From: Jiangella alkaliphila | GTDB lineage: Bacteria; Actinomycetota; Actinomycetes; Jiangellales; Jiangellaceae | Direction of reading: 5' to 3' | DNA: 64,000 nucleotides | Assembly: GCF_900105925.1 (NCBI RefSeq) | Contig: NZ_LT629791.1 | Span: 1,798,001 to 1,862,000, forward strand | Shown here: positions 47,818-58,769 of the stretch, one piece after another | Layout of the letters: every line of letters begins with the position of its first letter | Position numbering within the stretch: position 1 is the stretch's first letter | Notes under the pieces: generated by a model | What the model was told of the DNA's origin: nothing | Seen by the model: the letters and a program-made list of their open reading frames with translations, nothing else | The model's database searches: none | Position numbers and translations under genes: made by a program

Positions 47818-49071
47818 GTGTCGCCCATCGCCTCGTACCGCCGCCTCCTCTCCCTCGCCGGTCTCGGCTACGTCGTCGTCGCCTTCCTCGGCCGGTTGCC
47901 GCTGGCCATGAGCCAGCTCGGCACGCTGCTGTTGGTGTCCGACGCGACCGGCCGCTACGCCGCCGGTGGCCTGGCCGCCGGCGCGCTGGCCGTCGCGAAC
48001 GCCGTCGGCGCCCCGCTCGCCGGTAGCATCGCCGACCGCGTCGGGCAGCGGCCGGTCGTGCTGGCGCAGTCATTGACGGCGGGCGTCGCGCTCGCCGCGC
48101 TGGTCGCGGCCGTCCACGCCGATGCGTGCACTCCGGCGCTGATCGGTGCGGCCGCCGTCGCCGGGTTCACGATGCCGCAGGTCGGCCCGCTGGCCCGGGT
48201 GCGCTGGCGGCCCATCACGCACCGCACCGGCAGCGCGCAGCCGCGGCTGGTCGACGCCGCGTTCTCCTACGAGGGCGCCGCCGACGAGGCCTCGTTCGTG
48301 CTCGGCCCGGCGCTGGTCGGCCTGGGCGCGGTGGCGCTGAGCCCCAGCGGCGCGCTGCTGGCCGCCGCCGCGCTGCTGGTGGTGTTCGGCTCATGGTTCG
48401 CACTGCACTCGACCGCCCGGCTGACCCACGCACTGCGTGCGTCCGCGGCCGCGCACGGCGGGTCGTTCGTCACCGTCGCGTTCCTGACGCTGTGCCTCGC
48501 ACAGCTGCTCATCGGGGTGATCTTCGGCGCCACCCAGACCGGCACGACGGCGCTGGCCACGGCCGAGGGCACTCCCGGGATGGCCGGGCTGGTGCACTCG
48601 CTGCTCGGTGCGGGCAGCGTGCTGGCCGGCCTGGCGACCGCGGCGCTGCCGGCCCGGTTCGGTTACGACCGGCGCATCCTGGTGTTCGCGATCGGGCTGG
48701 TCGTGCTGTCGTCGCCGCTGCTGCTGACCGGCTCGCTGGCCGCGCTGGTGCCGGTCGTGCTGGTGCTCGGCCTGGCCGTCGCGCCATACATGATCAGCGT
48801 GTTCGCCGCCGCCGAGCGGCAGGTGCCGGCCACCCGGGTGGGCGCGGCGATGACGCTGCTGGCCGGCGCCACCGGCATCGGCTACGCCATCGGGTCCGGC
48901 GTCGCCGGCCGGCTGGCCGACCTCGGCGGGCACCGGCCCGCGTTCGCCGTGACGGTGACCGCGGCGGCGCTCGCGGTGGTGCTGGCCGTCGTCCGCCTGC
49001 GCACCCAGCGGCGGCAGGAAGCGGACGGCGTCACCACTCCCGGTGAGCTGGCAGCAACGTCCCCGGGTTGA
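47818..49071 (+). CDS. MFS transporter
   Basis: A 417-residue protein with about twelve hydrophobic helices and the MFS loop motif AGSIADRVGQRPVVLAQ between helices 2 and 3. The C-terminal half repeats the pattern with ARFGYDRRIL and AGRLADLGGHRPA. The family moves small molecules with proton exchange; substrate is unknown. I prefer the GTG with GGAG a few bases upstream over an ATG 23 codons earlier. The 3' end overlaps the convergent ether-lipid-type flavoenzyme gene by 41 bases. Confidence 0.8.
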   Translation: MSPIASYRRLLSLAGLGYVVVAFLGRLPLAMSQLGTLLLVSDATGRYAAGGLAAGALAVANAVGAPLAGSIADRVGQRPVVLAQSLTAGVALAALVAAVHADACTPALIGAAAVAGFTMPQVGPLARVRWRPITHRTGSAQPRLVDAAFSYEGAADEASFVLGPALVGLGAVALSPSGALLAAAALLVVFGSWFALHSTARLTHALRASAAAHGGSFVTVAFLTLCLAQLLIGVIFGATQTGTTALATAEGTPGMAGLVHSLLGAGSVLAGLATAALPARFGYDRRILVFAIGLVVLSSPLLLTGSLAALVPVVLVLGLAVAPYMISVFAAAERQVPATRVGAAMTLLAGATGIGYAIGSGVAGRLADLGGHRPAFAVTVTAAALAVVLAVVRLRTQRRQEADGVTTPGELAATSPG

Positions 49072-50719
49072 GGTTCCGGCCAGGGTCGACCGACTTCAGC
49101 AGGCCGACCATGACGTCGGTGCCGGCCGGCGAGATGTCGTCCTCGAGCCAGTACGCGTGGTCGGTGCCGACGCCGTGGTGGTGGGAGATGGTGGCCTCGT
49201 TGTCGATGAACGACTGCTGGATCGCCTTCTTCACCACCCAGTACTGCTCGATCTGCTCGGCCGGCACATCGGTGCTGGGCGGGAACGCGAAGGTGAAGTA
49301 CAGGCACGCGCCGGAGTGGTAGCTGTGCGACAGGTGGCACATCGCGAAGCCCTTGACGCCCAGCTCGTCGTAGGCGTCGTTGGCCGCCCGGATCGTGTTG
49401 GCGTACAGGTTCATCAGTTTCGACCACGGCGCCGCGGTCTCGGACACGTCGCCGAGCGCGCCGATGTCGAGCAGGAAGTCGCGGATGTACGGGGTGTCGA
49501 ACTTCTTCTGGTCGTACAGCGCGCCCGGGCCCTTGCCCAGCTTGATGCCGCCGTGCTTCTTGACGATCTTGCCGACGAGGCCCTTCTGGTACTTCAGGTG
49601 AGAGGCCTCGCCCTCATAGCCGATGTAGGACAGGCACGCCGCGGACAGGTCCCAGCCGCGCCGCTCCAGCACGTTGAACAGGATCGGCCCGGCCTTCGCC
49701 GCCAGCCCCTTCGACGGCTTCTGCATCGCCAGCGAGAACGCGGTCTCGTTCGCGTCGGAGACGCGGGTGACCGTCGGCGCCGCGTCGGACTCGGAGATCT
49801 CGTGCATGGCGGCGATGGCCGCGGCCCAGGTCGGGTAGAGGTAGGCGATGATCTCGCGGTTCTCGGGGACCCGGTGCACGTTGACCCACGCCTCGGTGAT
49901 GACACCCAGGCGGCCCTCGGAGCCGAGGATCATCTCGCGGACGCTCGGTCCCGACGACGTGCTCGGCAGCGGCCGGAGGGCGATCACCTTGCCCGGCAGC
50001 ACGACCCGCAGGCCGCGGGTGATGTCGGCGATATCCCCATACTTGTCCGACTGCATGCCCGAGCTGCGCGTCGCGATCCAGCCGCCCAGTGTCGAGTGCT
50101 TGAAGCTGTCGGGCTGGTGGCCCATGGTCCAGCCGCGGGCGTTGAGCTGGTCCTCGAGGTCCGGTCCGAGCCCGCCGGCCTGGATGCGGGCCAGCCCCGC
50201 GGCCTCGTCGACCTCGAGCACCCGGTTCAGCCGGCCGAGGTCGAGCGAGACGACGACGCGATGCTCGGCCGGCTGCGGGGTCAGCGAGCCGGAGATGTTC
50301 GAGCCGCCGCCGAACGGGATGACGACGCCGTCGGCCGCGACCACGGCGTCGACCACCTGGCGCACCTGGTCCTCGTCGCCCGGGTAGACCACGACGTCGG
50401 GGACGCGCGGGAGGTCGCCGGCGCGGACGCGCACGAGGTCGACCAGCCCCTTGCCGTAGGTGTGCACGACCCGGTTGAGATCGCCGGTGTCGACGTACTG
50501 CTCGCCCAGTGCGTCGCGCAGCTTCCCGCCGAGGTCGTCGCCCATCCGGGAGGCCGGCACCTCGAGGTCATCGAACGCCGGCGGCGGCGTGCCGGGCCGG
50601 TTGAGGTCGATGCCGATCTTCTCCATGACGAACGGCGCCATCCTCGGCTTGTCGTCGTGGGTGAAGGCGATGCCCTCGACCCCCCAGCCCCACCACTTCT
50701 GGTGCTTGACACCGGTCAC
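49031..50719 (-). CDS. Alkyldihydroxyacetonephosphate-synthase-like FAD enzyme
   Basis: A 562-residue VAO-family flavoprotein. AGPS exchanges the acyl chain of acyl-DHAP for a fatty alcohol, making the ether bond of ether lipids. Sequence evidence: PMH-type FAD strand with PFGGGSNISGS; MGHQPDSFKHSTLGGW followed by TRSSGMQSDKYGDI, the closest match to animal AGPS (GHEPDS, STVGGW, TRASGMKKNxYGN); catalytic-Tyr region SHSYHSGACLYFTF (Tyr467); and the HHHGVG triplet at residues 513-515. It ends NLNPGTLLPA. It is last in a four-gene operon and overlaps the acyltransferase stop (GTGA). Annotated alternatives are generic FAD-linked oxidases, but the His triplet favours AGPS chemistry. Confidence 0.88.
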   Translation of the reverse strand: MTGVKHQKWWGWGVEGIAFTHDDKPRMAPFVMEKIGIDLNRPGTPPPAFDDLEVPASRMGDDLGGKLRDALGEQYVDTGDLNRVVHTYGKGLVDLVRVRAGDLPRVPDVVVYPGDEDQVRQVVDAVVAADGVVIPFGGGSNISGSLTPQPAEHRVVVSLDLGRLNRVLEVDEAAGLARIQAGGLGPDLEDQLNARGWTMGHQPDSFKHSTLGGWIATRSSGMQSDKYGDIADITRGLRVVLPGKVIALRPLPSTSSGPSVREMILGSEGRLGVITEAWVNVHRVPENREIIAYLYPTWAAAIAAMHEISESDAAPTVTRVSDANETAFSLAMQKPSKGLAAKAGPILFNVLERRGWDLSAACLSYIGYEGEASHLKYQKGLVGKIVKKHGGIKLGKGPGALYDQKKFDTPYIRDFLLDIGALGDVSETAAPWSKLMNLYANTIRAANDAYDELGVKGFAMCHLSHSYHSGACLYFTFAFPPSTDVPAEQIEQYWVVKKAIQQSFIDNEATISHHHGVGTDHAYWLEDDISPAGTDVMVGLLKSVDPGRNLNPGTLLPAHREW

Positions 50720-51486
50720 GACGCCTCCTCCTTCTGGGCGTGATCGCTCGCCTGCTCAGCCGGCTGGTCCGGCCGGGCGGCGTCGCGCCGCGGTTTCCCC
50801 TCGGCGTCGGGGTCGCCGGTGGCCACCATGGCGGCCACCTTCGCCTCGAGCCGTTCAGTCAGTTCGCGGGTCCGTTCCCCGGGCTGCGGGCTGATCGGTG
50901 CGCCGATGACCAGCGTCACCGGCGGCCGGCCCGGCTTCGGCCAGAAGTGCCCGACCGGCATGGCGGCGTCGGTGCCGATGATCGCCACCGGCACGCACGG
51001 CACGCCCTGCGCGATGCTCAGCGCCGCCGCACCCGGCTTGAACCGCTTGACGCCGCCCTCGGTGTTGCGCCGGGTGCCCTCGGGGAACACGACGACGGGG
51101 ACGTTCTCGCTCAGCAGCCGGTTGGCCAGGCCGCGGCCCTTGCCCATGTCGGCGTTGGTGCGGCTCACCGGGTAGGTGTTGAAGAAGACCGACGTGGTCG
51201 CCTTCATCCACCACCAGCGGTAGAAGTAGTCGGCGGCGGCGTTGACGGCCATGGTGCGGGTGTAGCGCCGCGGCAGCTCGGTGACCAGCAGCGGCGCGTC
51301 GAGGTGGCTGCTGTGGTTGGCCACGACGATGAACGGGACGGCCAGCCCGTCGAGGTTCTCGGCGCCGCGCACCGACACCTTCGTCGTCAGGTGCACCACC
51401 GGACGCAGGAGCAGGCGCTGTGCCACGAACCTGGCGAATCTGTGCCAGGCCGCGTGGTACCTCTTCGTACTCGCCTGTTCGCTCAT
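50716..51486 (-). CDS. PlsC-type 1-acyl-glycerol-phosphate acyltransferase
   Basis: A 256-residue acyltransferase with a membrane-associated N-terminus, the HX4D catalytic motif in ANHSSHLDAPLL, the glycerol-phosphate motif VVVFPEGTRRN and a downstream VPCVPVAIIGTD. The C-terminal ~35 residues are charged and disordered. It acylates lysophosphatidate, an alkyl-glycerol-phosphate or DHAP. In the operon it could form the acyl-DHAP that feeds the AGPS-like enzyme or place the sn-2 chain. It overlaps both neighbours by four bases. Confidence 0.88.
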   Translation of the reverse strand: MSEQASTKRYHAAWHRFARFVAQRLLLRPVVHLTTKVSVRGAENLDGLAVPFIVVANHSSHLDAPLLVTELPRRYTRTMAVNAAADYFYRWWWMKATTSVFFNTYPVSRTNADMGKGRGLANRLLSENVPVVVFPEGTRRNTEGGVKRFKPGAAALSIAQGVPCVPVAIIGTDAAMPVGHFWPKPGRPPVTLVIGAPISPQPGERTRELTERLEAKVAAMVATGDPDAEGKPRRDAARPDQPAEQASDHAQKEEAS

Positions 51487-52268
51487 CGTCGTCCGCTCAC
51501 CAGTCGCGCCGTGACCTTGCGCACCGCCGCCCGTGGAGCGTGCTCGGCCAGCCAGGCCAGGACCTTGAACCGTGCTGACGGTACCGAACGGACCCGCCTC
51601 TTCTCGACATCGGCCAGACAATCGGCCACGACGCGGTCGGCGTCGAGCCACAGCGACGACGGGATCGAGCTGGTCCGGATGCCGGCCCGCTCGTGGAACT
51701 CGGTGCGCACCCAGCCCGGCAGCAGCGCCGTGACCTGCACCCCGGTGCCGGCCAGCTCGAGCGACAGACTCTCGGAGTAGATGCGGACGAACGACTTGAT
51801 CGCCGCGTAGCCGCCCTGCGGGTTGAAGCCGGCGACCGACGACACGTTGACGATGACGCCGTGCCCGCGCTCGCGCATGGTGCAGGCGGCGGCCGCGCCG
51901 AGCACGACGACCGCGGTGATCATCAGGTCGATGGCGTGCTCGTGCTCGCTGGTGTCGTCGGTGGCGAGGCGCGAGTGGACGCCCTTGCCGGCGTTGTTGA
52001 CGAACACCTCGACGGGGGAGTCCGGGTCGGTCAGCCGGGCGGCGACGGTGTCCACCTGGGCGCGGTCGGCGAGGTTGGCCGTCAGCAGCTCGACGTCGAC
52101 GCCGTGTCGCCGGCGCAGGTCGTCGGCGGTGCTCTTGAGCCGATCCTCGTCGCGGGCCACCAGCACGAGGTCGCAGCCGCGGGCGGCCAGCGCGTTGGCG
52201 AAGGCGAGACCGATGCCGGACGTCCCGCCGGTGACCAGCGCCCGGCCGGTGAGCAGCGGCCCGGTCAT
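51483..52268 (-). CDS. Short-chain dehydrogenase, possible acyl/alkyl-DHAP reductase
   Basis: A 261-residue classical SDR with RALVTGGTSGIGLAFANALA, the NNAGKG motif, active-site VSSVAGFNPQGGYAAIKSF (Ser, Tyr-x-x-x-Lys) and PGWVRTEF. This resembles the DHRS7B/PexRAP and Env9-like group that act on lipids. In the operon it would reduce the ketone of alkyl-DHAP to alkyl-glycerol-3-phosphate; this is inference from context. The ATG overlaps the stop of the acyl reductase gene, and its own stop overlaps the plsC start. Confidence 0.85.
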   Translation of the reverse strand: MTGPLLTGRALVTGGTSGIGLAFANALAARGCDLVLVARDEDRLKSTADDLRRRHGVDVELLTANLADRAQVDTVAARLTDPDSPVEVFVNNAGKGVHSRLATDDTSEHEHAIDLMITAVVVLGAAAACTMRERGHGVIVNVSSVAGFNPQGGYAAIKSFVRIYSESLSLELAGTGVQVTALLPGWVRTEFHERAGIRTSSIPSSLWLDADRVVADCLADVEKRRVRSVPSARFKVLAWLAEHAPRAAVRKVTARLVSGRR

Positions 52269-54559
52269 GCCCGTCGTGCTCCTCGCACGCTGCGTAGCAC
52301 CGGCGACAGGCGGCCCTCGGCGGTGGTGGTCCAGCTGTGCACCGGCCAGCGCTTGGACTTCGCGTACCGGTAGAGGCTGGCGTCGGGGTTGACGGCGTTC
52401 GGGTGGCCGACGACCTCCAGCCAGGAGCGGTCGGTGTAGCTGTCGCCGTAGGCGTACGAGCCGGTGAGGTCGAGACCCTCGGAGCGGGCGTAGCGGCGCA
52501 GCCAGGTGGCCCGTGCCTCGCCGACCAGCGGCGGCGTGGCCAGGTGCCCCGTCCAGCGGCCGGACTCGTCGGACTCCATCTTGCCGGCGACCATGACGTC
52601 GAACAGCGGCGCCAGCGGCTCGACGAACACGTCGATCTCGCCGGTGAGCAGGACGGTGCGGTGCCCGGCCGCGCGGTGCGCCTTGATGCGCTCGAGCGCG
52701 TCCTCGAACAGGCCGCGGTGCAGCGACACCGTCACCTCGTCGGCGATGACCTTGCGCAGCTCGTTCTCGTTGACGCCCTCGTAGCGGCGCATGAACGTGC
52801 GGATGAAGTCGCCGCGGTCGCGCCGCTCGGCCTGCAGGTAGCGCGGGCCCAGGGCGACCAGGTTGCTCAGCACGACCGGCCACCGCGACAGTGGCTTGGC
52901 GGCCAGCTCGATCCACACGTAGTGCTCGACCAGCGTGGCCGCGGCGACGGTCTTCTGCAGGTCGAAGACGGCGACGACGTCGGTGCGCCGCGGCAGCTCC
53001 AGCGGCGCAGAACCGGCGGCGGCGCCGTCGCCGCTGGCGCCCCGGGTCAGGCCGGGCACGCCGGGGATGTGGATCTTCTGCAGGTAGTGCGCCCAGTCGA
53101 TCTCGGTGACGTCGAAGCCGTGCTCGGCCTTGCGGTCGTCGGGCAGCGCCGCGTGCAGCGCCCGCAGCTTGGCGTCGTCGAAGATGACCTCGGTCTCGGT
53201 GTACGGCTGGTACAGCGAGGTGAACTTGCGCAGCGTGTCGAGGTCGCGGCGGGCCCGGTAGATGGTGGAGATCCACTTGCGCGACCGCTGGCCCGGCGGC
53301 AGCCGGTCGACGGCCTTGTCGGCGAGGTCGACGACGCGCTCGCGGCGGCGCAGCGCCCGCTCGACCACGCCGCGGTGCGGGAACGACCATGACGGGACGG
53401 CGACGTGGCCCTTGGCGTCCTTGAGCGGGTTGGCCTCGAAGTACTCGTGCACGAGCCGGAGCAGCCGGCCGAACGGCAGCGGGTTGGTGATGCCGGAGCT
53501 GACCTGGAAGTACTGCGCCTCGCCGGACGGTGGCGGCACGGCGGCCGCGGCCAGAGCGGCGTTGACGACGAAGTCGACGGGGATGACGTCGAGCACGGTG
53601 TCGGCCAGCGCGGGGAACTCGGGCAGCAGGCCGCGCCCGTACGCCGCTATCAGCGGGTCGGCGACCTTGAAGCCGTCGATCCAGCCGGGGAACGGGTGCT
53701 TGAGCGACGACTCGATGATGGTCGGCCGGACGACCGTGAGCCGGTGCCCGTTGCCGGCCCAGAGGTCCTCGGCGACCCGCTCGCCCAGCGCCTTGGTGAA
53801 TGTGTAGACGTCGGGCCAGCCCAGGCTCTGCGCCCGGGTGCGGCCGGCCTCGACCAGCTCGACGCGGACCCACTCCTGCCGGGCCTGCTCGGCGGTGTCG
53901 GTGACGACCCGCGCGCCGGCTCGGCCGTGCTCGTCCTGCGCCTCGGTGAGCAACCGGCGCAGCAGCCGGGGGCTGCGCGACATGCGCTCGACGTCGGGCC
54001 GGGCGGCCTGCGCGTAGGCGAGTTCGGCCGTGCGGTCGACGTCGTGCTCGAGGCTGCGCTCTTCGGCGATGCCCTTGCGCAGCCCGGCGACGTAGCCGGT
54101 GGAGATGTGGACGACGTGCGGGTCGGAGCCGGCGGCCAGCAGCGCGCGGTACAGCGACTCGGGGCCGGAGACGTTGGAGGCGAACGCCTCGTCGATGGGC
54201 AGGTCGAACGACACCGTCGAGGCGGAGTGGATGACGACGTCGACACCGTCGGGCAGCGGCGGCAGCGCGCCGAGGTCGCCCTCGAGGACGGTGACCCGCG
54301 CGCGGTACTGCCGCTCGGCCTCTTCTTCACCGACGGCCGCGCGCCAGGTGCCGAAGACCGGCTTGCGGAACAGCCGGTCGATGCGGTCCTGCGCGCTGAG
54401 CGCCCCGCGCGGGCGGACGATCAGGCTCATCCGGGTGTCGGGGTAGGTCGACAGCAGCTTCTCGAGCAGGGCCTGGCCGACGAAGCCGGTCGCGCCGGTG
54501 AGGAGAACGTGTGCGCCGTGCAAGGTCGAGGTTCCTCCGGTGGCCGTGGCGGCGCTCAC
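52265..54559 (-). CDS. Fatty acyl-CoA reductase fused to a HAD-IB-like domain
   Basis: A 764-residue fusion. Residues ~1-520 form a fatty acyl-CoA reductase: LLTGATGFVGQALLEKLL (NADPH site), ISTGYVAG, VYTFTKALGE (Tyr252, Lys256) and VVRPTIIESSLKHPFPGWID, then a sterile-like C-terminal part. Residues ~525-764 form a HAD-IB domain with VAVFDLQKTV (motif I), VLLTGEID (motif II) and YAYGDSYTDRSWLE (motif IV). Motif I has Gln535 where the second Asp is expected, so phosphatase activity may be changed or lost. The reductase would supply fatty alcohol for the AGPS-like enzyme. The GTG start overlaps the stop of a 19-codon leader ORF. Confidence 0.88.
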   Translation of the reverse strand: MSAATATGGTSTLHGAHVLLTGATGFVGQALLEKLLSTYPDTRMSLIVRPRGALSAQDRIDRLFRKPVFGTWRAAVGEEEAERQYRARVTVLEGDLGALPPLPDGVDVVIHSASTVSFDLPIDEAFASNVSGPESLYRALLAAGSDPHVVHISTGYVAGLRKGIAEERSLEHDVDRTAELAYAQAARPDVERMSRSPRLLRRLLTEAQDEHGRAGARVVTDTAEQARQEWVRVELVEAGRTRAQSLGWPDVYTFTKALGERVAEDLWAGNGHRLTVVRPTIIESSLKHPFPGWIDGFKVADPLIAAYGRGLLPEFPALADTVLDVIPVDFVVNAALAAAAVPPPSGEAQYFQVSSGITNPLPFGRLLRLVHEYFEANPLKDAKGHVAVPSWSFPHRGVVERALRRRERVVDLADKAVDRLPPGQRSRKWISTIYRARRDLDTLRKFTSLYQPYTETEVIFDDAKLRALHAALPDDRKAEHGFDVTEIDWAHYLQKIHIPGVPGLTRGASGDGAAAGSAPLELPRRTDVVAVFDLQKTVAAATLVEHYVWIELAAKPLSRWPVVLSNLVALGPRYLQAERRDRGDFIRTFMRRYEGVNENELRKVIADEVTVSLHRGLFEDALERIKAHRAAGHRTVLLTGEIDVFVEPLAPLFDVMVAGKMESDESGRWTGHLATPPLVGEARATWLRRYARSEGLDLTGSYAYGDSYTDRSWLEVVGHPNAVNPDASLYRYAKSKRWPVHSWTTTAEGRLSPVLRSVRGARRA

Positions 54560-54615
54560 CGGCGGGATCCCAGGGCATCGCGTCCGGCCCGTGCCAGGTC
54601 GAAGTCAGATGCCAT
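54556..54615 (-). CDS. 19-codon leader ORF coupled to the acyl reductase gene
   Basis: An ATG with GGAGGG at good spacing encodes a 19-residue peptide starting MASDFDLARAG and ending LGSRR. Its TGA overlaps the GTG start of the reductase, which has no good ribosome site of its own. This looks like translational coupling by a leader peptide. The peptide has no recognised function. Confidence 0.5.
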   Translation of the reverse strand: MASDFDLARAGRDALGSRR

Positions 54616-54793
54616 GCGCCCTCCCCAGGCAGGTGCCGCCGCTCGGTCGAGCTGCATTTTTAGTTACCCGTGCCGTCGGCCGGCGGCCCTTGTCGAAGTC
54701 CAGGGGGTGCCGATGACCCCATACGCCGTGCAGACAATACACAGAATGTAGCCCTTCGCGGGCATGGCCATCGTATCGCTACTGGTGAGCTGG

Positions 54794-56830
54794 TCACCTT
54801 TCCCTTGTGGGACTCCCCGCTGTCTTGGACCTCGCGGTCGGCGAGGCGAGCGCGCCGGGCAGCGGCTCGCGGTGCACGACGGTCAGCGACGACACCGCGC
54901 GGGTGAGCACGACGTAGAGGCGGCGCAGCCCGGCCGGCTCGGCCGCGACGATGGCGGCCGGCTCGACGACGACCACGTGGTCGTACTCGAGGCCCTTCGC
55001 CAGGGTGGCCGGCACCAGCGTGATCCGGGCGTCGTCGGCGAGGTGGCCGTAGTCGAGGCCGGCGGCGTCGAGCGCGGCCTCCATGTCCGGGACGGCGGCG
55101 TCGGCGACGATGACGCCGAGTGACCCCTCGCGGGACGCGACATCGACAGCGGCGACGGCGACGGCTTCCCGCAGGTCTCCGGCCGCGTCGACCAGGTCGA
55201 GCCGGCCGGGGTTGGACCGGACCGGCTCCGGTGGCGCGATTCCCGGTGCGATGACCGGCAGCAGCCGCCCGGCGAACTCCACCACGGCCGCGGGCACGCG
55301 GTAGCCCTTGCGCAGCACCTCAAGGTGGGCGTCGTCGTGGGCGAGGTGGCGCAGCGCCTCCGGCCAGGACGGCGTCGCCCACGGCGTGGTGCCCTGGGCG
55401 ATGTCGCCGAGGACGGTGAGCGAGCCGGTGCCGGCGCGGCGGCCGACGGCGCGCAACTCCATGGGGGAGAGGTCCTGCGCCTCGTCCAGCACCACGTGCC
55501 CGACGCCGGGGACCCGCTCCAGCGCCGCGGCGGCCTCGTCGACCAGGACGGCGTCAGCGTGCGACCACGGCGCGGTCTTCGGGCCGCGGGCGGGCTTGCG
55601 CCACAGCAGGCGGCGCTGCTCGTCGTCGTCCAGGATGCCAGCCGCCGCGGTGGCGAGCAGGTCCGGCTCGCTGAGCAGCCGCATGACCAGCTTGACCGGG
55701 TCCAGCGCCGGCCACAGCTCGTCGACGTGCGCCTTGACCGGCCGGGACCGGGCGACGGCGTTCTGGACGCGGTCGTCGGTGATCTCGCCGGCCGCCTCCA
55801 TGCGCAGCAGGATCCGGTGCGCCAGCCGCTGGCCGAGCAGCGATCGGGCCGTCGTGTAGCCGTCGCCGCGCTCGCGCAGCGTCCGGATCGCGTCGGCGAC
55901 CTCGTGCACCGGGACCCGCCAGCGCCGGGTGCCGCGGGGCACGTAGAGCGTGTCGGCGGGCTCCTGGACGTGCGACCAGATCGCGTTGCGGACGACCTCG
56001 GCCAGGCGGGCGTCGCCCTTGAGCGTCGCCGTCTCCGGGTCGTCGGTGCCCCTGATCGGGACCGTCTCGACCAGCTCGGCGACGGTGACCTGGCGGACGT
56101 CGACCTCGCCGAGCGTCGGCAGCACCTGGGCGATGTAGTGCAGGAACGCCTGGTTCGGCCCGATGACCAGCACGCCGGTGCGCGACAGCCGGTCGCGGTA
56201 GGCGTGCAGCAGGAACGCCGCCCGGTGCAGCCCGACGGCGGTCTTGCCGGTGCCTGGCGCGCCCTGCACGCACACCGTCCGGTCGAGCGAGGCGCGGACC
56301 ACCTCGTCCTGCTCAGGCTGGATGGTGGCGACGATGTCGCGCATCGGCCCGACGCGCGGCCGCTCGATCTCCTCGGTGAGGATGCGGCTGGTGATGTCGG
56401 TCTCGCCCGGGTCGAGCAGGTGCTCGTCCTCGTACGAGGTCAACTCGCCGCCGGCGAACCCGTAGCGGCGGCGCAGCGTGACGCCATGCGGGTCGTCGCG
56501 GGTGGCCCGGTAGAACGCCCGCGACACGTCCGCCCGCCAGTCGACCACCATGGGGTCGCCGTCGCCGTCCATGACGTGGCGCCGCCCGATGTGAAAGGTC
56601 TCGGCGTGGTCGTCGTCGGTGCGGTCGATGCGGCCGAAGAACAGCGGCAGCGACGGGTCGTCCTCCAGCGCCTTCGCCCGCCGGTACAGCGCGGCCTTGA
56701 GGTATTCCGTCGAGACGTGGTCGCCGCCCTGCGCCGTCAGCGACAGGGTGTGCTCGCGCATCGAGTTGAGATCGGCGCGCGAGCGGCTCAGATGGTCCCG
56801 CTCGGTCTGCAGGACGGGGTCGACGGACAC
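54794..56830 (-). CDS. HelD/HelR-like RNA polymerase-associated UvrD-type ATPase
   Basis: A 678-residue superfamily 1 ATPase lacking the usual UvrD accessory length. It has an N-terminal helical region, then FFGRIDRTDD, VMDGDGDPMVVDWRAD and a Walker A CVQGAPGTGKTAVGLHRAA. Walker B-like VVLDEAQDLSPMEL, VLGDIAQGTTPWA and VVLTRAVSSLTVVH follow. The actinobacterial HelR group displaces stalled RNA polymerase and can give rifamycin tolerance. The GTG start has GGGAGG 6 bases upstream. I saw no rifamycin-associated palindrome upstream, so it may be the housekeeping HelD type. It stands in its own unit. Confidence 0.85.
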   Translation of the reverse strand: MSVDPVLQTERDHLSRSRADLNSMREHTLSLTAQGGDHVSTEYLKAALYRRAKALEDDPSLPLFFGRIDRTDDDHAETFHIGRRHVMDGDGDPMVVDWRADVSRAFYRATRDDPHGVTLRRRYGFAGGELTSYEDEHLLDPGETDITSRILTEEIERPRVGPMRDIVATIQPEQDEVVRASLDRTVCVQGAPGTGKTAVGLHRAAFLLHAYRDRLSRTGVLVIGPNQAFLHYIAQVLPTLGEVDVRQVTVAELVETVPIRGTDDPETATLKGDARLAEVVRNAIWSHVQEPADTLYVPRGTRRWRVPVHEVADAIRTLRERGDGYTTARSLLGQRLAHRILLRMEAAGEITDDRVQNAVARSRPVKAHVDELWPALDPVKLVMRLLSEPDLLATAAAGILDDDEQRRLLWRKPARGPKTAPWSHADAVLVDEAAAALERVPGVGHVVLDEAQDLSPMELRAVGRRAGTGSLTVLGDIAQGTTPWATPSWPEALRHLAHDDAHLEVLRKGYRVPAAVVEFAGRLLPVIAPGIAPPEPVRSNPGRLDLVDAAGDLREAVAVAAVDVASREGSLGVIVADAAVPDMEAALDAAGLDYGHLADDARITLVPATLAKGLEYDHVVVVEPAAIVAAEPAGLRRLYVVLTRAVSSLTVVHREPLPGALASPTARSKTAGSPTRER

Positions 56831-56961
56831 GGGTGGCCTCCCAGGGCTCGGCGGAAGATGGCGCTTTCCGACGGCCCGGTGGTCCGGTCCGGTCGCGAAG
56901 GGCATGGGAGCTTAGCCCAGACTGCCCGGGCGTGTCCACTCGAATGCGGTCGCGCCGGGCG

Positions 56962-58608
56962 TCAGCTGTCGCGGAGGACGTCCTCGGCGTCGGCGATCTG
57001 GTAGGCGTAGCCCTGCTCGGCGAGGAAGCGCTGGCGGTGCTGGGCGTAGTCCTGGTCGACGGTGTCGCGGACGATCACCGAGTAGAACCGGGCCGTGCGG
57101 CCGTCGGACTTGGGCCGCAGGATGCGGCCGAGCCGCTGCGCCTCCTCCTGCCGCGAGCCGAACGTGCCGGACACCTGGATGGCGACGCTCGCCTCGGGCA
57201 GGTCGATGGAGAAGTTCGCCACCTTGCTGACCACCAGCGTGCGGATCTCGCCGGTGCGGAAGCCGTCGAACAGCCGCTGCCGCTCGCGCACCGTCGTCTC
57301 GCCCTTGACCACGGGGGCGCCGAGGCGCTCGCCGAGCTCGTCGAGCTGCTCGATGTACTGGCCGATGACCAGCGTCGGCTCGCCGGCATGCCGCTTCACC
57401 AGGCCCTCGACGACGCGGGTCTTGGCGTTGGTGCACGACGCCAGCCGGTAGCGCTCGTCGGGCTCGGCGGTGGCGTAGGCGAGCCGCTCGCCGTCGGACA
57501 GGGTGACGCGCACCTCGACGCAGTCGGCGGGGGCGATCCAGCCCTGGTTCTCGATCTCCTTCCAGGGCGCGTCGTAGCGCTTCGGGCCGATCAGCGTGAA
57601 GACGTCGTCCTCGCGGCCGTCCTCGCGCACCAGCGTGGCCGTCAGCCCGAGCCGGCGGCGCGCCTGCAGGTTCGCCGTCATGCGGAAGATCGGCGCCGGT
57701 AGCAGGTGCACCTCGTCGTAGACGACGAGGCCCCAGTCGCGGGCGTCGAGCAGCTCGAGATGCGGGTAGACGCCCTTCCGCCGGGTGGTCAGCACCTGGT
57801 ACGTCGCGATGGTGACCGGGCGGACCTCCTTCTTCGCGCCGGAGTACTCGCCGATCTCGTCCTCGGTGAGGCTGGTGCGCTTGACCAGCTCGTCCTTCCA
57901 CTGCCGGGCCGCGACGGTGTTCGTCACCAGGATCAGCGTGGTGGCGCCGGCCCGCGCCATGGCGGCCGCGCCGACCAGGGTCTTGCCAGCGCCGCAGGGC
58001 AGCACGACCACGCCGGAGCCGCCGTGCCAGAAGCCGTCGACGGCGTCGCGCTGGTACGGCCGCAGCGTCCAGCCGTCCTCGGCCAGCGCGATGGCGTGCG
58101 CCTCGCCGTCGACGTAGCCGGCGGTGTCCTCGGCCGGCCAGCCCAGCTTGACCAGCGCCTGCTTGAGGTTGCCGCGCTCGGACGCGTGGACGACGACGGT
58201 GTCGGGGTCGAGCCGGTTGCCGACCAGCGGGGCGACACGCTTGGACCGCAGCACCTCCTCGAGCACGGCGCGGTCGGTGGTGACCAGTACCAGCCCGTGC
58301 ACCGGGTGGCTCTCGAGCCGGAGCCGGCCGTACCGGGCCATCGTCTCGGCGACGTCGACCAGCAGCGCGTGGGGCACGGGGTAGCGGGAGTACTTGAGCA
58401 GGGTGTCGACGACCTGCTCGGCGTCGTGACCGGCGGCCCGGGCGTTCCACAGGCCGAGCGGCGTCAGACGGTAGGTGTGGACGTGTTCGGGTGCCCGCTC
58501 CAGCTCGGCGAACGGCGCGATGGTGCGGCGGCAGTCGTCGGCGAGGTCGTGGTCGACCTCGAGGAGCAGGGTCTTGTCACTCTGGACGATCAGGGGTCCG
58601 TCGTTCAC
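56962..58608 (-). CDS. XPB/Ssl2-type DNA repair helicase
   Basis: A 548-residue superfamily 2 helicase. The N-terminal damage-recognition-like region (LIVQSDKTLLLEVDH, LTTDRAVLEEVLRSK) is followed by Walker A VVLPCGAGKTLVGAAAM, DEVHLLPAPIFRMTA, GLTATLVREDGREDD with the RED motif, and QRLGRILRPKSDGR. Actinobacterial XPB unwinds DNA 3' to 5' and is thought to act in repair. The GTG start is placed where the conserved N-terminus begins, 25 codons inside the longest frame. Confidence 0.93.
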   Translation of the reverse strand: MNDGPLIVQSDKTLLLEVDHDLADDCRRTIAPFAELERAPEHVHTYRLTPLGLWNARAAGHDAEQVVDTLLKYSRYPVPHALLVDVAETMARYGRLRLESHPVHGLVLVTTDRAVLEEVLRSKRVAPLVGNRLDPDTVVVHASERGNLKQALVKLGWPAEDTAGYVDGEAHAIALAEDGWTLRPYQRDAVDGFWHGGSGVVVLPCGAGKTLVGAAAMARAGATTLILVTNTVAARQWKDELVKRTSLTEDEIGEYSGAKKEVRPVTIATYQVLTTRRKGVYPHLELLDARDWGLVVYDEVHLLPAPIFRMTANLQARRRLGLTATLVREDGREDDVFTLIGPKRYDAPWKEIENQGWIAPADCVEVRVTLSDGERLAYATAEPDERYRLASCTNAKTRVVEGLVKRHAGEPTLVIGQYIEQLDELGERLGAPVVKGETTVRERQRLFDGFRTGEIRTLVVSKVANFSIDLPEASVAIQVSGTFGSRQEEAQRLGRILRPKSDGRTARFYSVIVRDTVDQDYAQHRQRFLAEQGYAYQIADAEDVLRDS

Positions 58609-58769
58609 CGCACCATTGTCCCGTACGGTCGGCCTGTCGAGAACCGTGCATACCGACGACGACTGGGGGCCGGAGGCTCCCACGAGTTGTCGGTCGGCTA
58701 TGGACGGCCGAGGCGCGGGGTCTGCGCGTGTGCGAGCGGCGCATGCACGGGGCGAGACGTAGGGGTGTG

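Follow-up and report, generated by a model that had tools for sequence, protein, structure and literature searches.

The route to ether lipids through acyl-dihydroxyacetone phosphate (acyl-DHAP; DHAP is also called glycerone phosphate) is in itself known. Mammals follow it in the peroxisome with FAR1, GNPAT, AGPS, and PexRAP/DHRS7B, and the myxobacterium Myxococcus xanthus has an operon, MXAN_1676-1674, that encodes AGPS (alkyl-DHAP synthase), a fusion of a fatty acyl-CoA reductase (FAR) with GNPAT, and an NAD-dependent epimerase/dehydratase (PMC9131029). Myxobacteria also possess the elb genes (ElbB, HAD-like; ElbD, FAR-ACS-ACP-AT; ElbE), and a further system is the anaerobic plasmalogen synthase PlsA/PlsR. 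Here we describe a four-gene operon of the soil actinobacterium Jiangella alkaliphila, found in a window of 64,000 nucleotides (contig NZ_LT629791.1, positions 1,798,001 to 1,862,000), which very probably encodes an acyl-DHAP route to 1-O-alkyl ether lipids, and a diiron protein, DiA, linked to related operons in other actinomycetes. What is new here is the form of the operon and the link to DiA; no account of either was found in the literature searched, which left most subscription journals outside its coverage, and a search aimed directly at AGPS and ether lipids in actinobacteria was unproductive. One metagenome study does give counts of actinobacterial AGPS homologues (PMC11868695).

The four reaction types of the mammalian route match those proposed for the Jiangella operon, although here the genes stand together in one operon with no peroxisome, the FAR carries a HAD domain, and the acyltransferase has a PlsC/AGPAT-type sequence. 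The resemblance to Myxococcus, also an aerobe, lies in the presence of AGPS, FAR, acyltransferase, and dehydrogenase in a single operon; the differences are that FAR and acyltransferase are separate proteins in Jiangella, with the FAR fused to HAD instead, that the reductase is a classical short-chain dehydrogenase/reductase (SDR), and that the actinobacterial desaturase candidate is DiA rather than CarF. A first-pass annotation of this DNA had proposed a distinct aerobic route, on the grounds that the known bacterial ones, the anaerobic PlsA/PlsR genes and the myxobacterial elb operon, use other genes. For the myxobacteria this is in part wrong and had to be given up, since MXAN_1676-1674 already holds AGPS, FAR-GNPAT, and a dehydrogenase. 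With elb, the operon has in common FAR-like and acyltransferase domains and a HAD protein, but it contains no multidomain protein of the ElbD type, and AGPS is present in Jiangella and not in elb. PlsA/PlsR also gives dimethyl acetals (DMAs); unlike the AGPS route, it converts diacyl lipids directly.

The operon is on the minus strand of a 7.7-Mb genome in a single contig, and its features are the following (window coordinates):

52265..54559, minus strand: gene 1, FAR-HAD fusion, 764 aa (FAR at about residues 1-505, HAD-IB at about 523-764)
52265-52993, minus strand: HAD domain of the FAR-HAD fusion
51483..52268, minus strand: gene 2, classical SDR, 261 aa, proposed acyl/alkyl-DHAP reductase
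50716..51486, minus strand: gene 3, PlsC-type acyltransferase, 256 aa, proposed DHAP acyltransferase or alkyl-glycerol 3-phosphate (alkyl-G3P) sn-2 acyltransferase
49031..50719, minus strand: gene 4, AGPS homologue, 562 aa
52265..52268, minus strand: FAR-HAD/SDR overlap, ATGA (stop 52265-52267, SDR ATG 52266-52268)
51483..51486, minus strand: SDR/PlsC overlap, ATGA (stop 51483-51485, PlsC ATG 51484-51486)
50716..50719, minus strand: PlsC/AGPS overlap, GTGA (stop 50716-50718, AGPS GTG 50717-50719)
54560..54793, minus strand: non-coding gap of 234 bases 5' of the operon, the expected promoter site from the layout of open reading frames

The gene order and the 4-base overlap at each of the three junctions, both reported in the first-pass annotation, are real, and every gene has Pfam and PDB matches; together with a gene set common to 80 actinomycete loci, these matches place the operon far beyond chance. 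The span given there, 49031-54615, stood at its left end only: at the right, a stop at 54605-54607 closes off the reading frame of FAR-HAD, which puts the start of the gene at the GTG of 54559 or later. The start of PlsC was set at 51486 because the longer reading frame listed for it extends into the SDR gene. A scan for a sigma-70 promoter and a terminator was unproductive, with no match to the sigma-70 consensus in the upstream gap.

By its sequence, catalytic residues, phylogeny, and predicted fold, the flavoenzyme encoded by gene 4 is AGPS. When its sequence was searched against the PDB with phmmer, the best solved structures were AGPS of Dictyostelium (2uuu, 3e-107) and of guinea pig (4bby, 2e-79), and the next family, the GlcD-type D-lactate dehydrogenases, followed at 1e-17. 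Identity to mammalian AGPS is 31% over 518 residues, and the alignment of the PDB match pairs H201, R319, R413, Y474, and H513-515 with H300, R419, R515, Y578, and H615-617 of the guinea pig enzyme. All of these residues are invariant in 79 actinomycete homologues, and the catalytic ones are the same in kind as R352, Y508, and R447 of Dictyostelium AGPS, which mutagenesis has shown to be important (PMC3509576). Where AGPS has Y474, R413, R319, and HHH, the GlcD paralogues carry H, G/A/S, E, and GEH. The HHH triplet is at residues 513-515, as the first-pass annotation had it, and the catalytic Tyr, whose region it described as kept, is Y474.

In a maximum-likelihood tree, the type I actinobacterial sequences join the two eukaryotic AGPS that were included (Dictyostelium and guinea pig) with a support of 95/93, with long branches flagged, that of guinea pig among them; the type II subfamily lies outside, and the GlcD-type paralogues split off at 100/100. 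The exact placement of the eukaryotes is tentative in these sequence data, while the split of type I AGPS from the GlcD type is not. A clustering with D-lactate/glycolate oxidases, which the earlier annotation had named as a way in which it could be wrong, is therefore not what the tree gives. The structure comparison that it had suggested was also carried out. The predicted model (pLDDT 79.7, with parts of the active-site loops of low confidence) matches mammalian AGPS with Z 37.7 over residues 2-556, versus Z 31.2 for D-lactate dehydrogenases, aligned only over residues 59-556, and both the AGPS-specific N-terminal part and the overall fold are found in it. By homology, the enzyme would exchange acyl for alkyl on acyl-DHAP.

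As for the other three genes, gene 1 has the Pfam domains NAD_binding_4 (5e-46), Sterile (8e-9), and HAD (9e-30). Its FAR part matches a fatty acyl-CoA reductase in the PDB (7eoz, E 1.4e-53) and has a conserved SDR-type Y252xxxK, which supports its assignment, by family, to the alcohol-forming fatty acyl-CoA reductases. In the HAD-IB domain, the nucleophile D533, T537, and GD705-706..D710 are invariant in 58 homologues, but the phosphatase motif DxDx(T/V), with its general acid at D+2, is absent from 58 of 58: this position is never Asp (E in 33, Q in 17, H in 8). The HAD domain is therefore not a standard phosphatase, and the sequences suggest that its phosphatase chemistry has been altered or lost.

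Gene 2 has the Pfam domain adh_short (1.4e-38). Among curated families, mycolate reductase comes nearest (E 2.9e-50, under the family cut-off); judging from the name, that enzyme acts on the ketone of a bulky lipid. NNAG and the catalytic Ser-Tyr-Lys (S144, Y154, K158) are conserved in 68 homologues, and the protein is proposed to be the acyl/alkyl-DHAP reductase. Gene 3 matches the Pfam family Acyltransferase (8.8e-21) and, in the PDB, PlsC (5kym, 2e-13), with H58x4D63 and E136-G137-R140 conserved in 71 homologues. Of the curated models compared, those for AGPAT/PlsC match best, and the genome has six PF01553 genes. The acyltransferase thus has a sequence of the PlsC/AGPAT type, from which it cannot be taken for a GNPAT; its candidate steps are the acylation of DHAP or that of alkyl-G3P. 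Homology, catalytic residues, phylogeny, predicted fold, and linkage are all in favor of the first-pass reading of the four genes as FAR, acyl(alkyl)-DHAP reductase, acyltransferase, and AGPS.

The survey of co-occurrence across actinobacteria proposed along with that reading was carried out on 80 named loci around AGPS, the counts being taken over loci with enough flank, and the gene set was found to be kept. The genera include Jiangella, Georgenia, Ruania, Subtercola, Frigoribacterium, Herbiconiux, Microlunatus, Propioniferax, Streptomyces, and Mycobacterium. PlsC adjoins AGPS in 77/77 loci, 73/76 have the SDR no more than 3 kb from it, and 57/74 have FAR-HAD no more than 7 kb from it (in line in 25, divergent in 32). 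At the level of whole genomes (297 from the class), FAR-HAD accompanies type I AGPS in 30 of 33 cases, versus 35 of the 264 genomes that have no type I AGPS. Relatives of gene 4 at 86-94% identity all come from Jiangella, among named genomes.

Many of these loci bring in another gene product, one that the first-pass annotation had missed. Genes for two paralogous proteins, DiA (∼264 aa) and DiB, flank FAR-HAD in 36 loci, and FAR-HAD is present in 36/36 loci with DiA. The sequence profiles of DiA give mere hints of Rubrerythrin and acyl-ACP desaturase. Its ligand pattern, E45, E77xxH80, E141, E171xxH174, is invariant in the 36 sequences, while DiB is a ligand-poor paralogue in which several diiron ligands have been lost. 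The predicted model of DiA (pLDDT 88.4) is nearest to stearoyl-ACP desaturases (Z 18.5, 237 residues, 3.3 Å), followed by R2-like oxidases and ribonucleotide reductase R2 (Z ∼15); helical bundles give high fold scores generally, so that this match denotes a shared fold and not a function. With E...ExxH...E...ExxH ligands in a ferritin-like bundle, DiA is, by sequence and model, a ferritin-fold diiron protein resembling the acyl-ACP desaturases. With those of plants and mycobacteria (PF03405) it shares the fold and the six-ligand diiron pattern, but identity is 12-19%, under the Pfam cut-off, and unlike them DiA is linked to FAR-HAD and has the ligand-poor partner DiB.

Among 250 genomes of one family, taken as Microbacteriaceae from the matching gene order of named members, DiA occurs in 66/66 genomes with type I AGPS versus 10/184 AGPS-negative ones; genomes of the same genus are not independent, and the AGPS-positive ones span 26 genera. 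In the wider class, DiA is found with the close type of FAR-HAD in 22/23 cases and with type I AGPS in 20/33, so that there it is FAR-HAD, and not AGPS, to which DiA is tied. Jiangella has one DiA, 72% identical and ∼0.7 Mb away from the operon, with no related gene beside it.

Acid methanolysis of vinyl ethers yields DMAs, and these are the mark of plasmalogens. Their occurrence, in branched form, in aerobic actinobacteria was surprising to those who reported it, as DMAs are usually a trait of anaerobes (PMC7472656). The aerobes Subtercola boreus, S. lobariae, and S. vilae contain iso-16:0, anteiso-15:0, and anteiso-17:0 DMAs, which total ∼21-29% of the peak area, while Agreia (L094) is low in DMA (PMC5945732). 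Genomes of all three Subtercola species (L063, L072, L075, L065, L076) have all of the cluster genes. For Frigoribacterium faeni and F. adelgis, anteiso-15:0 aldehyde/DMA has been reported (PMC12823222), and F. faeni (L097), likewise an aerobe, carries the cluster. The same species shows 17% of "C14:0 2-OH" (PMC7033078), a name that an automated system gave in error, in another actinobacterium, to what gas chromatography-mass spectrometry identified as anteiso-15:0 DMA (PMC7472656). The large "C14:0 2-OH" of aerobic Microbacteriaceae, such as Frondihabitans, may likewise be misnamed anteiso-15:0 DMA (PMC5945732, PMC7033078). DMA-negative records therefore need rechecking; a direct literature search for DMA in Microbacteriaceae beyond Subtercola was unproductive.

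Eight genomes with the cluster gave no hit to DUF2229, a domain associated with the anaerobic PlsA, whereas the control genomes were positive. The anaerobic route is therefore unlikely, and PlsA/PlsR was rejected as the source of DMA in these genomes. PF10520 (PEDS1/TMEM189/CarF) gave no match in Jiangella or in eight other genomes, in a search that had no positive control.

How might these proteins work together? Reading the steps and the product from homology, the FAR would reduce a fatty acyl-CoA, probably iso/anteiso-branched, to the fatty alcohol, and an acyltransferase, either the PlsC of the operon or another, would form 1-acyl-DHAP. AGPS, with FAD, would swap the acyl group for the fatty alcohol to give 1-O-alkyl-DHAP, whose ketone the SDR would reduce to 1-O-alkyl-G3P; acylation at sn-2 would follow, and then entry into phospholipid synthesis. 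In organisms with DiA, this protein may desaturate the alkyl chain at the 1' position, giving plasmalogens aerobically. That DiA is such a desaturase, with the DMAs of Subtercola and Frigoribacterium as its trace, draws on linkage, fold, the oxygen chemistry of the fold class, and the DMA reports, and we regard it as nearly as likely to be right as wrong. The broader proposal of a third plasmalogen arrangement, in which the AGPS route is joined to a soluble DiA (with DiB) that makes the vinyl ether and is unrelated to PEDS1/CarF and PlsA/PlsR, is tentative and somewhat more likely to fail than to hold.

It is possible, if rather doubtful, that the operon leads no further than alkyl ether lipids, such as plasmanyl lipids or alkylglycerols, and that DiA is unrelated to it, for example an ordinary desaturase of acyl chains that shares the neighborhood of FAR-HAD. 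Georgenia-type loci, and one genus in all of its 11 sampled genomes, do have type I AGPS without DiA, and acyl-ACP desaturases are the nearest folds; set against this are the 66/66 co-occurrence in one family, the constant position of DiA beside FAR-HAD in linked loci, and the DMAs, which need a vinyl ether or a free aldehyde, in genera that have AGPS, FAR-HAD, and DiA and no PlsA-type domain. A second route to ordinary ester phospholipids or wax esters by way of DHAP acylation and reduction, the FAR supplying wax alcohol and the AGPS homologue acting on another substrate, appears improbable. FAR enzymes do serve wax synthesis in other organisms (PMC11948995), and the FAR, SDR, and PlsC families are functionally broad, but an AGPS with all of its catalytic residues, sharing an operon of overlapping genes with an enzyme that forms fatty alcohol, has no evident use in ester lipids, and PlsC and SDR lie next to AGPS almost without exception. 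It is hardly credible that gene 4 encodes a D-2-hydroxyacid dehydrogenase or a subunit of glycolate oxidase and was mistaken for AGPS: the domains PF01565/PF02913 are indeed common to gene 4 and GlcD, yet the AGPS match in the PDB is better by ∼90 orders of magnitude, the residues at Y474, R413, R319, and HHH differ, and tree and fold side with AGPS. A GlcD identity was rejected on the PDB search, the tree, and the fold match.

Several observations weigh against the acyl-DHAP route with its DiA step. The HAD domain carries no assigned role, and the acyltransferase is not of a recognized GNPAT type. DiA is absent from 13 of the 33 type I genomes of the class sample, is missing beside many type I operons, and occurs in some genomes without AGPS, and therefore it is not strictly tied to AGPS. 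In two genomes, AGPS and SDR give way to a zinc dehydrogenase and a protein of the Lar_N (lactate racemase N-terminal) kind, so that FAR-HAD and DiA may have some further use as well. For J. gansuensis, the fatty acids reported at more than 10% are all of the usual branched types (PMC5292007), although alkyl ethers would not show up as methyl esters. Myxococcus that has lost its AGPS homologue shows no more than a slight drop in ether lipids (PMC9131029).

The operon and DiA offer a concrete candidate for the genetic basis of the DMAs of aerobic actinobacteria, and the data suggest that some aerobic bacteria may continue to plasmalogens via an enzyme not recognized before. If DiA is the desaturase, vinyl ethers arose by a third chemistry. 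The grouping of actinobacterial with eukaryotic AGPS bears on the origin of the peroxisomal enzyme, although two eukaryotic sequences are too few to decide it.

Some variants of the cluster were also seen. The AGPS-free loci mentioned above are L125 (8984-16025) and L129, from the family of the host, where FAR-HAD is followed by the zinc dehydrogenase, Lar_N, and PlsC, and in L125 also by DiA after PlsC. In Subtercola (L063, 2591-4153), a Lar_N protein and a second PlsC lie between FAR-HAD and DiA. DiA-DiB pairs stand alone, with no FAR-HAD or AGPS nearby, in two Microbacteriaceae-type genomes (L120, 9816-11462; L121, 9150-10771). Propionibacteriaceae and relatives keep SDR-PlsC-AGPS without a nearby FAR-HAD (L059-L062, L064, L066, L069, L073, L082, L100, L102, L104, L109, L112); PlsA/PlsR genes have also been reported in Propionibacteriales (PMC9702350).

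The type II AGPS subfamily (L024-L028) has roughly 33-41% identity and the full catalytic set. Some AGPS-like protein is present in 158 of the 297 genomes of the class, type I in only 33. Mycobacterium simulans (L057) and a metagenome-assembled genome labeled Mycobacterium (L056) carry the type I operon, with AGPS ∼70% identical; that of M. simulans adjoins Jiangella and Georgenia in the tree, which suggests gene transfer.

In the window itself, the downstream neighbor of the operon is a convergent MFS gene. Directly upstream, on the same strand, is a HelD/UvrD-like helicase gene (54794-56905) and, beyond it and again on the same strand, an XPB-type helicase gene (56962-58683).

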